Part shown: one piece after another, positions 48,941 through 50,622 of the stretch
Layout of the letters: each line of letters starts with the position of its first letter
Position numbering within the stretch: the stretch's first letter is position 1
Source: Ohessyouella blattaphilus
GTDB lineage: Bacteria > Bacillota > Clostridia > Lachnospirales > Lachnospiraceae
Length of the DNA stretch: 64,000 nt
Direction of reading: 5' to 3'
NCBI RefSeq assembly: GCF_024721265.1
Contig: NZ_JAMXOC010000002.1
Coordinates: forward strand, 215,253 to 279,252
Translations under genes and position numbers: made by a program
Notes under the pieces: model-generated
Databases searched by the model: none
What the model saw: only the letters and a program-made list of their open reading frames with translations
Told to the model about the DNA's origin: nothing

Positions 48941-49850
48941 GATCTTCTCCTGGATTCAAATCCAACCGATCGGCCACCCGATTCAGCTCCTCTTTATTAT
49001 AAACCTGGTATTCATCCCAGATATCCTCTAAGGTTTCTAGAGTCCTAACCACCTCGTCTTGCTTCTTCATACAAAGGGCTACCACAAGGGCGTTGATTAC
49101 GCTTAATGGGGCAACTAGTGAATCCACAATCGAAATCATATCGCTTCTGGCAATTAAATTGCAGGACGAATACATAGTAATCGGCGAACGAGCGCTATCG
49201 GTAATGGCAATTACCTTGGCCTTACGGTTGCAGGCAAACTCTAACGCCTTTAAGGTTCGCATCGAATAGCGGGGAAAAGAAATGCCGATAATCACATCTT
49301 CCTCGCTAATGCGAATCATCTGCTCAAAAATCTCACTGGCGCTATTGGTATTAATTAAGGTCACCTGATCACAGGCCAAATGGAGATAAAAATTGAGAAA
49401 ACCTGCTAAAGGCGCACAGCTACGAATCCCGATAATATAAATCTTTCTTGCCTTTAAGATGGTATCCACCGCCAGTTCAAAAGCCTCATGGTCAATATTT
49501 GCCATAGTCTGCTTAATCTTATCGATGTCGGCGTGGAGGACACTATCGAGAATCTCTTTTTCCGTAATCCGCCCGTAGGTAACTTCCATGCGCTGAATGG
49601 AATTAAGCTTTGTCCGTACCAATTCCCCTAATGCCTTTTGTAACTCCGGATAACCGCTGAAGCCCAGCGTGGTAGCAAAGCGAACCACCGTGGACTCGCT
49701 GACACCTACTTCTTTCCCCACTCGCGCCGCCGTCATAAAGGCCGCTTTATCGTAATTCTTCTCATAGAAATCGGCTAGCCGCTTTTGACCCTTGCTAAAT
49801 TTGGCGTAGCCGTCTTCCATCTGTTCTAGTAAGTTGTTATCTCTTGACAT
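48930..49850 (-). CDS. MurR/RpiR family transcriptional regulator
   Basis: 306 residues. An N-terminal HTH_6 domain (TAARVGKEVGVSESTVVRFATTLGFSGYPELQ, about residues 38-70) and a SIS sugar-phosphate-binding domain (IYIIGIRSCAPLAGF to VIIGISFPRYSMRT). Such proteins sense phosphosugars; the adjacent hexosamine-type glycan locus is a possible target. GGAG is 10 nt before the ATG. It overlaps the ubiquitin-like gene by 14 nt and the flavoprotein gene by 11 nt, so it is co-transcribed with both. Confidence 0.93.
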   Translation of the reverse strand: MSRDNNLLEQMEDGYAKFSKGQKRLADFYEKNYDKAAFMTAARVGKEVGVSESTVVRFATTLGFSGYPELQKALGELVRTKLNSIQRMEVTYGRITEKEILDSVLHADIDKIKQTMANIDHEAFELAVDTILKARKIYIIGIRSCAPLAGFLNFYLHLACDQVTLINTNSASEIFEQMIRISEEDVIIGISFPRYSMRTLKALEFACNRKAKVIAITDSARSPITMYSSCNLIARSDMISIVDSLVAPLSVINALVVALCMKKQDEVVRTLETLEDIWDEYQVYNKEELNRVADRLDLNPGEDREE

Positions 49851-50622
49851 GTTTCACACTCCAACCCAGTATCATCATTAAACATAAAAAAACTAACAGA
49901 ACAACCGAAGTCCCCTCCGTAGCATCACCTGTTCGCACGCCCCCGCCATTCATACTCACCTGCGGACTAGACGGATTGCTGGTATCGCCCGTTGGTGGCA
50001 CATCTTCCGCAACCGGCTCTTCCGCAACCGGCTCTTCCGCAACCGGCTCTTCGCTAGCGCTACTGACCTTAATCGTAATCGCCTTTTGGGAAATCACTGT
50101 TTCGTTAGATGAAAGTTGAATATTCGTGCTGTATTCACCAATGCTAAGACCTTTCTTGACTTTTAAGTTAATCTTATAACTATCATAGCCTACTTCTAAT
50201 TTGCCTTCATAAGAATTATCAAGTGACGCAATACATCCCTCTGGTATATTAGCTGAAATAACAACATATTCGTAGTCGCCTTCGTGATAATTGTCAAGAA
50301 GCTCAATCACTTCAAGACCATCGATAGCATTTCTAAGCACGAGATGAAGGGTGGATTCTTTTTGAATATTGTAATCGGATAATGTTTTACCTTCCTCTAA
50401 CTGTTTGCCCGCAAATATTAATCTTTGTTGTATTGGAAGAATCCCTTCCTTTTCTTGAATCTTAGATTTAATACTATCAATAGTATCGGTCGGCTCTACC
50501 TCTAGCGTAATCGTTTTCCCTGTTAGAGTTTTTACAAATATCTGCATCGCTTGCAATGGCGTCACCAGAATCATGGCACAGATAAGAGCTACGACCGGTA
50601 TTAATTTAACTTTATAACTCAT
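49837..50622 (-). CDS. Exported, membrane-anchored ubiquitin-like protein
   Basis: 261 residues. A signal peptide (1-25, ending TPLQA) is followed by a ubiquitin domain that begins at Met26 with MQIFVKTLTGKTITLEVEP. Against human ubiquitin residues 1-72 I count 62 identities. All seven Lys (positions 31, 36, 52, 54, 58, 73, 88 here), the Leu8/Ile44/Val70 patch and His68 are kept. After Arg72 the LRGG tail is replaced by NAIDG, so the usual conjugation end is lost. Then come an Ig-like beta region (about 103-188), three EEPVA repeats (191-205), two TGD segments (PPTGD, VRTGD) and a membrane segment (240-256) with KHVKR, a degenerate sortase-type end. Own promoter and strong AGGAGGTG site; it overlaps rpiR. 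Related proteins: Bacteroides fragilis BfUbb, a secreted ubiquitin. Acquisition from a eukaryote is inferred. Confidence 0.95.
   Translation of the reverse strand: MSYKVKLIPVVALICAMILVTPLQAMQIFVKTLTGKTITLEVEPTDTIDSIKSKIQEKEGILPIQQRLIFAGKQLEEGKTLSDYNIQKESTLHLVLRNAIDGLEVIELLDNYHEGDYEYVVISANIPEGCIASLDNSYEGKLEVGYDSYKINLKVKKGLSIGEYSTNIQLSSNETVISQKAITIKVSSASEEPVAEEPVAEEPVAEDVPPTGDTSNPSSPQVSMNGGGVRTGDATEGTSVVLLVFLCLMMILGWSVKHVKR
50008..50052 (-). repeat. Three perfect 15-bp tandem repeats coding EEPVA
   Basis: The 15-nt unit cgcaaccggctcttc (plus strand) occurs three times without any mismatch. The linker it encodes separates the Ig-like region from the membrane anchor. Perfect copies point to recent slippage, so copy number may vary among strains. 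Confidence 0.9.

Follow-up and report, generated by a model that had tools for sequence, protein, structure and literature searches.

Exported bacterial ubiquitin is known from BfUbb of Bacteroides fragilis, a secreted protein whose mature N-terminus aligns exactly with ubiquitin residue 1 (PMC5705921). BfUbb is 63% identical to human ubiquitin and binds E1 through a disulphide that was ascribed to its C-terminal cysteine (PMC3352274). Synthetic BfUbb inhibits 13 of 40 B. fragilis strains, apparently without any need for an immunity gene, and bovine ubiquitin has no activity on B. fragilis, which in 2017 was termed 'one of a few bacteria' with a ubiquitin gene (PMC5705921). Here we analyzed a 64,000-nucleotide stretch of the Ohessyouella blattaphilus genome (contig NZ_JAMXOC010000002.1, positions 215,253 to 279,252; hereafter the window) that encodes a near-human ubiquitin placed directly behind a predicted signal peptide and in front of a stalk, a repeat linker and a predicted membrane helix. 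The initial annotation of the window implied a lone transfer from a eukaryote; instead, we found 390 stretches encoding relatives in the GTDB species set, most of those examined having the same junction between signal peptide and ubiquitin. This class of exported ubiquitins is a larger finding than the window gene itself.

A predicted signal peptide followed by near-human ubiquitin, as first annotated, was confirmed, and a recount gave the same number of identities. Alignment of residues 26-97 to human ubiquitin chains left 10 differences (62 of 72 residues identical, 86%), and residues 28-97 matched the Pfam ubiquitin family PF00240 with an expectation value (E) of 4.6e-28 and 97.2 bits, the curated cut-off being 25.4 bits. 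This domain, hereafter the head, carries the human-type residue at all seven lysines (6, 11, 27, 29, 33, 48 and 63) and at L8, I44, H68 and V70, and zero residues separate its Met1 from the predicted signal peptide (LQA/MQIF). After R72, the protein reads NAID where human ubiquitin has LRGG (L73-R74-G75-G76), and there is no C-terminal diglycine. The cysteines are C15 in the signal peptide, C130 in the stalk and one in the membrane helix, with none in head residues 26-97. Conjugation, or capture of E1 or E2, was rejected on account of the absent LRGG together with the cysteine-free head. On the same grounds, the E1/E2 binding raised in the initial annotation is unlikely, the missing cysteine being of the BfUbb type (PMC3352274).

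The protein continues for 164 residues beyond the ubiquitin domain, including a hydrophobic helix, and this full architecture is shared by two orthologues, P0121 and P0122. The EEPVA-type repeats (three in the window protein, two and one in its orthologues), the helix and the KHVKR tail bear out the repeat linker and membrane anchor described initially. The 'Ig-like' label of the initial annotation was not substantiated, since structure prediction gave beta strands at low confidence (block-mean predicted local distance difference test, pLDDT, of ~28-51) and a Pfam scan of the stalk matched no family. No canonical LPxTG precedes the membrane helix of the window protein, and the motif found there (VRTGD in the window protein and P0122, VRTAD in P0121) is at best a degenerate sorting signal. 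The helix and basic tail support the predicted anchoring in the membrane, and wall anchoring would be possible given the nine sortase matches over the cut-off in the genome.

The window protein thus resembles BfUbb in being a near-eukaryotic ubiquitin predicted to be exported, with a signal peptide flush with residue 1, no diglycine, a patchy occurrence and a gut habitat. Unlike BfUbb, which is free, 76 residues long, antibacterial and ends in a cysteine, it is predicted to be anchored and multi-part, with 86% rather than 63% identity to human ubiquitin (over 72 residues) and a head devoid of cysteine. A second counterpart is RUMAL_RS21475 ('Ubiquitin family protein') of the cultured strain Ruminococcus albus 7, which combines a predicted signal peptide (ANA/MQIFVKTL), a head without LRGG that shares 79% of 72 residues with the window head, and a further region. 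However, this C-terminal region of ~150 residues is a different one, no membrane helix is visible at its end, and the gene is borne by a plasmid, pRUMAL01. There it occupies positions 5923-6663 (locus L105), in a same-strand row with genes for hypothetical proteins, a PI-PLC-like protein and a dockerin protein, and the plasmid is mobilizable.

Eukaryotic polyubiquitins and ubiquitin fusions contain the same domain, with 10 differences in 72 residues and the seven lysines kept; compared to them, the window protein lacks LRGG, is predicted to be exported and has a single copy at its mature N-terminus. A search for the E2 family PF00179 gave no match in the genome, which shows little since the control genomes gave none either; E1, E3 and deubiquitinases were not searched. 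The secreted ubiquitin-extension effectors of the nematode Globodera rostochiensis, as recounted in PMC5705921, also have a signal peptide before ubiquitin and are used outside the cell on another organism. They differ in that the gene is eukaryotic, the C-terminal peptide is cleaved off in the plant, and they act on plant cells (PMC5705921). Among the papers listed in literature searches, none was seen to describe anchored or widespread exported bacterial ubiquitins, most subscription papers and preprints being outside the reach of these searches, and a 2024 review of ubiquitin evolution gave no match to 'secreted' or 'signal peptide' (PMC11354881).

To survey prokaryotes, we used six peptides from the window head to scan 84,980 GTDB species genomes and obtained 583 stretches, from which the 390 encoding ubiquitin relatives were drawn. 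We took the best 80 of these 390; as they were seeded by exact window-head peptides, their high identity is partly selected. With the loci from genome searches, they yielded 104 domain instances, 95 of them non-redundant, and 84 with at least 54 of 72 residues identical to human ubiquitin. The 11 rows below this limit in an ungapped comparison, gapped relatives among them, were left out of the 84-row counts, and counts on 82 open reading frames (ORFs) leave out the window gene and one ORF with an internal stop as well. Signal peptides were called by a script rule (-1 in AGSC, -3 in AVSTGLIC, at least 8 of 12 residues hydrophobic) that misses four proteins with an APTG spacer (L044, L072, L076 and L087) and counts L032, probably spacered, as flush.

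In 70 of the 84 ORFs, or 68 of the 82, a hydrophobic core was followed by an AxA-type site directly abutting ubiquitin Met1 (a flush junction). As a control, the bare -1/-3 rule was applied around the junction: 70 of 82 ORFs satisfied it at Met1, against 7 to 38 of 80-82 at the six preceding positions and 0 of 82 at each of the six following ones. The flush ORFs fall in nine named phyla, one of them archaeal: Bacillota (31/34), Pseudomonadota (17/20), Bacteroidota (6/6), Verrucomicrobiota (5/7), Actinomycetota (2/4), the archaeal Methanobacteriota (1/2), and Cyanobacteriota, Planctomycetota and Chlorobiota (1/1 each). The single Myxococcota row was not flush (0/1), and three of five rows without a phylum name were. 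Phylum names are those of the records, mostly metagenome-assembled genomes (MAGs), some of which may be misbinned; for instance, the C-terminal parts of the 'cyanobacterium' L038 and the Methylophilaceae L037 are 94% identical. Loci without a signal peptide by the rule, such as L028, L046, L059, L071 and L095, are possibly contamination and were counted as misses. Flush proteins also occur in isolates, including Dyella, Conexibacter, Leeia oryzae, Pseudohaliea rubra, Rhodoferax lacus, Denitrificimonas caeni and Ruminococcus albus 7. A keyword list, with 'SIG' taken as ruminant, found ruminant or gut words in the record titles of 31 of the 82.

A profile search in Clostridia provided a less biased sample. 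The genomes in which PF00240 exceeded its cut-off numbered 6 of 397 in the family, 6 of 295 in the order and 5 of 391 in the class; the O. blattaphilus genome is counted each time, and the distinct other genomes total 13. Examined by eye, nine of these 13 had the flush junction, three of their loci (L006, L098 and L100) overlapping with the larger set. Some of the flush heads (L003, L008 and L012) are far from human ubiquitin, indicating that the junction was retained in some cases where the sequence diverged. In the other four genomes, L005 looks exported with an internal ubiquitin, L014 has a signal peptide and a short spacer, L013 has no signal peptide, and the last carries L015-L017. L014 (genome G548, of the same order as the window) is a 106-residue protein consisting of a signal peptide and a ubiquitin-like domain without an anchor, a BfUbb-like form. 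L015-L017 (genome G457, a small genome of that order) contain diverged ubiquitin-like repeats without a visible signal peptide and appear to be a different, cytoplasmic-looking kind.

Of the 84 ORFs, 11 keep the LRGG tail, 8 have LRG with a different last residue and 65 have lost the motif; judging from these tails, 73 of the 84 should not be conjugatable. Behind the head, a domain scan of 83 proteins (some trimmed to 1000 residues) identified at E <= 0.001 autotransporter beta-domains in 13, GLUG in 5, dockerin in 4, IPTL-CTERM in 2, type IX secretion system (T9SS) tails in 2 and SLH in 1, and several Bacillota relatives end in sortase-type tails (NPQTG, NPETG or PKTG followed by a helix and a basic end). 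Anchored or multi-domain forms, initially described as a different architecture in a Firmicute, are common among the relatives. A flush head was followed by at most 60 residues in 12 of the 82 ORFs, some of which have an anchor only, so that ubiquitin itself looks like the displayed part. As the head is common and the body lineage-specific, we argue that ubiquitin is what is shown. These proteins are, by their predicted features, a class of surface-displayed N-terminal ubiquitins, defined by a flush signal peptide, a near-eukaryotic ubiquitin and a lineage-specific anchor or stalk, into which the window protein fits.

Selection on the head was compared to that on the remainder of the protein in pairs of relatives. 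Thirty-one pairs passed a filter of 42% or higher identity across 40 or more residues behind the head, and from them we hand-picked 13 that share no locus and have a defined ratio of nonsynonymous to synonymous substitution rates (dN/dS); pairs with an undefined ratio, L058/L080 among them, were dropped. Without exception (13 of 13 pairs), ubiquitin had a lower dN/dS than the remainder of the protein (medians 0.077 vs 0.314; Wilcoxon p 2.4e-4), although some pairs belong to one wider family (L025/L074 and L035/L057) and are not strictly independent. The margin was thin in L047/L097 (0.108 vs 0.121) and L041/L079 (0.152 vs 0.159). Furthermore, per-site divergence in the bacterial heads tracked that of 30 eukaryotic polyubiquitin units (Spearman 0.55), the units coming from best-scoring proteins, many of them named eukaryotic and the others unnamed metagenome proteins assumed to be so. 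That the class stays near eukaryotic ubiquitin has to be read with the sample in mind, which was itself picked by similarity.

We propose, with a probability of roughly 0.4, that the window head is a conjugation-dead, surface-held ubiquitin ligand facing eukaryotes, either an animal host or a grazing protist. The window protein would be exported and its signal peptide cut off, ubiquitin Met1 becoming the mature N-terminus; the membrane helix would hold ubiquitin head-outward on the cell surface, where it would act as a non-covalent ligand for ubiquitin-binding proteins of the host or protist. Having lost LRGG, the head would escape both activation by E1 and removal by a deubiquitinase. For the window protein, we infer that it is exported, cleaved and oriented in this way, that it binds, and that its partner is eukaryotic. 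Favoring this proposal are the near-human sequence under strong constraint, the head-first display and the minimal proteins that are little but a head, and sequence comparison shows the same head-first layout in further gut Clostridia and, with unrelated anchors, in other phyla. Effects of extracellular ubiquitin on animal cells have been reported, for which the receptor CXCR4 was proposed and disputed (PMC10892293). By extension, though we consider it somewhat unlikely, prokaryotes of nine named phyla would wear ubiquitin, a single eukaryotic molecule, as the outermost, native N-terminal head of their surface proteins, a non-cleavable and non-conjugatable sign that spreads, swaps signal peptide and anchor, and is kept near-human for a eukaryotic reader. 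The window protein would then be a lollipop-shaped member lying in a mucin-sugar island.

Ubiquitin is regarded as a eukaryotic hallmark, and studies of how bacteria interfere with it have dealt mostly with injected enzymes. If our proposal is true, exported and surface-held ubiquitin across phyla would represent a second mode, imitation rather than modification. This would raise the questions of what reads ubiquitin outside cells, whether protists or hosts respond to ubiquitin-wearing bacteria, and whether ubiquitin-like antigen in autoimmune disease comes from gut bacteria, as raised for BfUbb in PMC3352274. Cultured carriers such as R. albus 7 make these questions testable without MAGs.

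Several observations weigh against a eukaryotic reader. The Dyella, Leeia, Rhodoferax and Pseudohaliea carriers are presumably free-living, so that the partner common to all carriers cannot be a mammalian receptor. Most ubiquitin receptors are cytosolic, and we know of no established extracellular ubiquitin receptor in protists. The only studied relative, BfUbb, acts on bacteria (PMC5705921). In the close pair L058/L080, the sole change lies in ubiquitin and none in the rest, which leaves the ratio undefined. Site conservation was examined by residue group (core, I44, F4 and TEK/I36). Divergence at the I44 face was 0.056 vs 0.143 at other exposed sites (one-sided p 0.198), hence no measurable extra conservation, and in close pairs the I44 face showed 1.44 changes per site vs 0.91 at other exposed sites, mostly at positions 49 and 72, with L8, I44, K48 and H68 unchanged. 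By eye, the diverged exported copies L007 and L012 have lost much of the I44 patch. We therefore rejected constraint on the I44 face as proof of reader binding, since neither the site-divergence test nor the close-pair test supported it. The absence of extra constraint on this face suggests that constraint acts on the whole domain, and the partner is our conjecture.

The heads of the window protein and P0121 are identical at 68 of 72 residues, and all four changes lie within residues 34-40. The chance of finding four changes in so short a span is 0.0013, by a test devised after the pattern was seen. Changes so confined are expected of a fast-changing contact loop and would suit the main rival explanation, namely that the protein is a contact-dependent relative of BfUbb whose displayed head inhibits rival bacteria, for example through a surface or envelope protein of the neighbor. 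Bacterial neighbors would be available as a target in every habitat of the class, and the target of BfUbb is, as Jiang et al. (Nat. Microbiol.) reportedly found, an essential periplasmic prolyl isomerase. Furthermore, we found no exported bacterial ubiquitin other than BfUbb whose function has been tested, and this function is antibacterial (PMC5705921). However, the window protein is predicted to be tethered and comes nearer to human ubiquitin than BfUbb does, and bovine ubiquitin was inactive on B. fragilis (PMC5705921). In addition, an arms race predicts divergence, whereas the class, as sampled by similarity, is near-eukaryotic and under purifying selection. We consider antagonism of this kind unlikely as the role of the window head.

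Core sites showed 0.43 changes per site in close pairs, below the exposed groups (I44, TEK/I36 and other). Together with the lack of extra constraint on the binding face, this is what would be expected if the head were a structural cap, that is, an unusually stable, fast-folding and protease-resistant N-terminal module that aids export or shields the stalk in the protease-rich gut; the zero-length junction, which leaves no ragged N-terminus, fits as well. The same holds for a 209-residue protein of the same genus that has no ubiquitin but an apparent signal peptide and apparent membrane tail of its own, and whose weak match to the stalk suggests that the stalk can exist headless. This match starts at residue 100, just past the ubiquitin/stalk junction, making the head a possible added module. 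At 29% identity over 100 columns (E 4e-4, a single comparison), the similarity suggests as a lead only that the head may have been added onto, or lost from, a pre-existing stalk. Conversely, the proteins with at most 60 residues behind the head, some of them with an anchor only, leave a cap little to protect, and stability alone should not require a near-human sequence in many phyla, the ubiquitin fold tolerating many substitutions in mutational scans. A purely structural role thus seems to us quite unlikely, and a surface ligand facing eukaryotes is the reading that we retain.

We also asked whether the gene is genuine. The cluster of the window protein has 3 member sequences on 4 contigs, the longest of 379,255 bases. 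Among 2072 candidates preselected by shared exact words from a database of 5.8 billion proteins, only the window protein, P0121 and P0122 reached E <= 0.001 with residues 98-261. The window gene is the sole PF00240 match at E <= 0.001 in its genome (3.25 Mb, 98.9% complete, 0.03% contaminated). A chimeric contig, a concern of the initial annotation, or eukaryotic contamination at this gene was rejected in view of the several contigs, the two orthologues, the genome quality and the usual flanking genes, and no sign of a chimera was seen. The head has a G+C content of 0.352, compared to 0.437 in the rest of the gene and 0.435 in the window. This low value and the patchy distribution are features that a recently captured neutral passenger, or an assembly artefact, would show. 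Such an explanation is highly improbable, given the several contigs and two orthologues, the gene order shared around the island described below, the purifying selection measured on the heads of relatives, and the presence of exported ubiquitins in cultured isolates such as R. albus 7.

In a tree of the domain (114 rows by 72 columns), of the kind suggested initially for finding the donor, the window and P0121 heads fell in a 22-row group without eukaryotes, the other members being 18 Clostridia rows and two rumen Bacteroidales. The group had a Shimodaira-Hasegawa-like approximate likelihood-ratio test (SH-aLRT) value of ~80 and was drawn open, and one of the 111 inner branches of the tree was starred. 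Approximately unbiased (AU) tests rejected neither a topology with every bacterial row on a single side (p 0.239) nor one joining the window and P0121 to the eukaryotic rows (p 0.16). A 72-residue tree is thus too weak to fix the donor or the number of transfers. Since the nearest ubiquitins in the tree are exported ones of other gut bacteria, the immediate donor of the window gene was probably another gut bacterium. Capture from a eukaryote, as initially claimed, is likely from the identity to be the ultimate source of the domain rather than the immediate one, and vertical inheritance without eukaryotic affinity does not match a distribution this patchy or heads so clearly eukaryote-like. None of 50,697 phage records matched at E <= 1e-5, and 3 of 72,556 plasmid records did: R. 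albus pRUMAL01 and two Pseudoalteromonas plasmids at 40-44% identity.

The ubiquitin gene sits between genes for an APH-type kinase and an rpiR-type regulator, at the edge of an island with lacto-N-biose (LNB)/galacto-N-biose (GNB) genes (Table 1). The minus-strand genes of this cluster encode the kinase (Pfam APH), two ABC permeases and a solute-binding protein, and its plus-strand genes an AraC regulator and an LNB phosphorylase. The presence of an LNB/GNB phosphorylase cluster next to the gene agrees with the nearby mucin-glycan genes reported initially, a fair label.

Table 1. Coordinates of the ubiquitin-head gene, the parts of its product and neighboring features in the window.
Feature	Position in window	Strand	Remarks
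Ubiquitin-head gene, whole	49837..50622	minus	ATG start, 261 aa + stop
Signal peptide (predicted), residues 1-25	50548..50622	minus	ends LQA, abuts ubiquitin Met1; hydrophobic core and AxA-type site called by the script
Ubiquitin domain, residues 26-97 (human positions 1-72)	50332..50547	minus	62/72 identical to human; followed by NAID
Stalk, residues 98-189	50056..50331	minus	beta strands in low-confidence model; no Pfam family
Linker, residues 190-237	49912..50055	minus	EEPVA-type repeats
Membrane helix (predicted), ~residues 238-256	49855..49911	minus	from sequence; model helix 235-259, low confidence
Basic tail KHVKR	49840..49854	minus	from sequence
rpiR-type regulator (HTH_6 + SIS)	48930..49850	minus	start overlaps ubiquitin gene by 14 bases
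Terminator-like hairpin between kinase gene and ubiquitin gene	50676..50704	minus	11-pair stem + T run
Lacto-N-biose/galacto-N-biose cluster	50719..58507	both	lies, with ubiquitin gene, between oadA and rpiR
oadA	58560-60005		split from rpiR by cluster and ubiquitin gene

We compared this arrangement to the 11 relatives (L107-L117) whose rpiR match reached 40% identity or more. rpiR directly follows oadA in six of them; among the other five, the contig of L109 stops near the rpiR start. In a same-genus genome, the gap between oadA and rpiR is ~136 bases (with the start codon picked by homology), whereas in the window ~8.7 kb (49851-58559), comprising the LNB/GNB cluster and the ubiquitin gene, separates the two. 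The overlap between rpiR and the ubiquitin gene is therefore probably a mere by-product of island insertion and says little on function. No mobility genes were detected among the ORFs scanned in the ~8.7-kb island. Four terminator-like hairpins were found vs 3.1 expected in shuffled sequences, so that the hairpin upstream of the ubiquitin gene is weak evidence alone.

Elsewhere in the window, positions 42491-44794 (minus strand) encode a 767-residue surface-type protein that combines LDVSKNTxLxxL-type leucine-rich repeats with an NPKTGDDS tail and a membrane helix; as a sorting signal, this tail is more canonical than the one in the ubiquitin protein. Among the surveyed loci, L061, on a Methanothrix-labelled archaeal MAG contig that may be misbinned, encodes a 1,493-residue protein with a flush ubiquitin head. 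The exported ubiquitin of a roe-deer Clostridia MAG (L019, positions 6001-6216) has an internal stop in the domain and looks like a pseudogene or a sequence error. Finally, a single rumen Clostridia genome (L027, and L098/L104) carries two distinct genes for exported ubiquitins next to each other, each with its own signal peptide.

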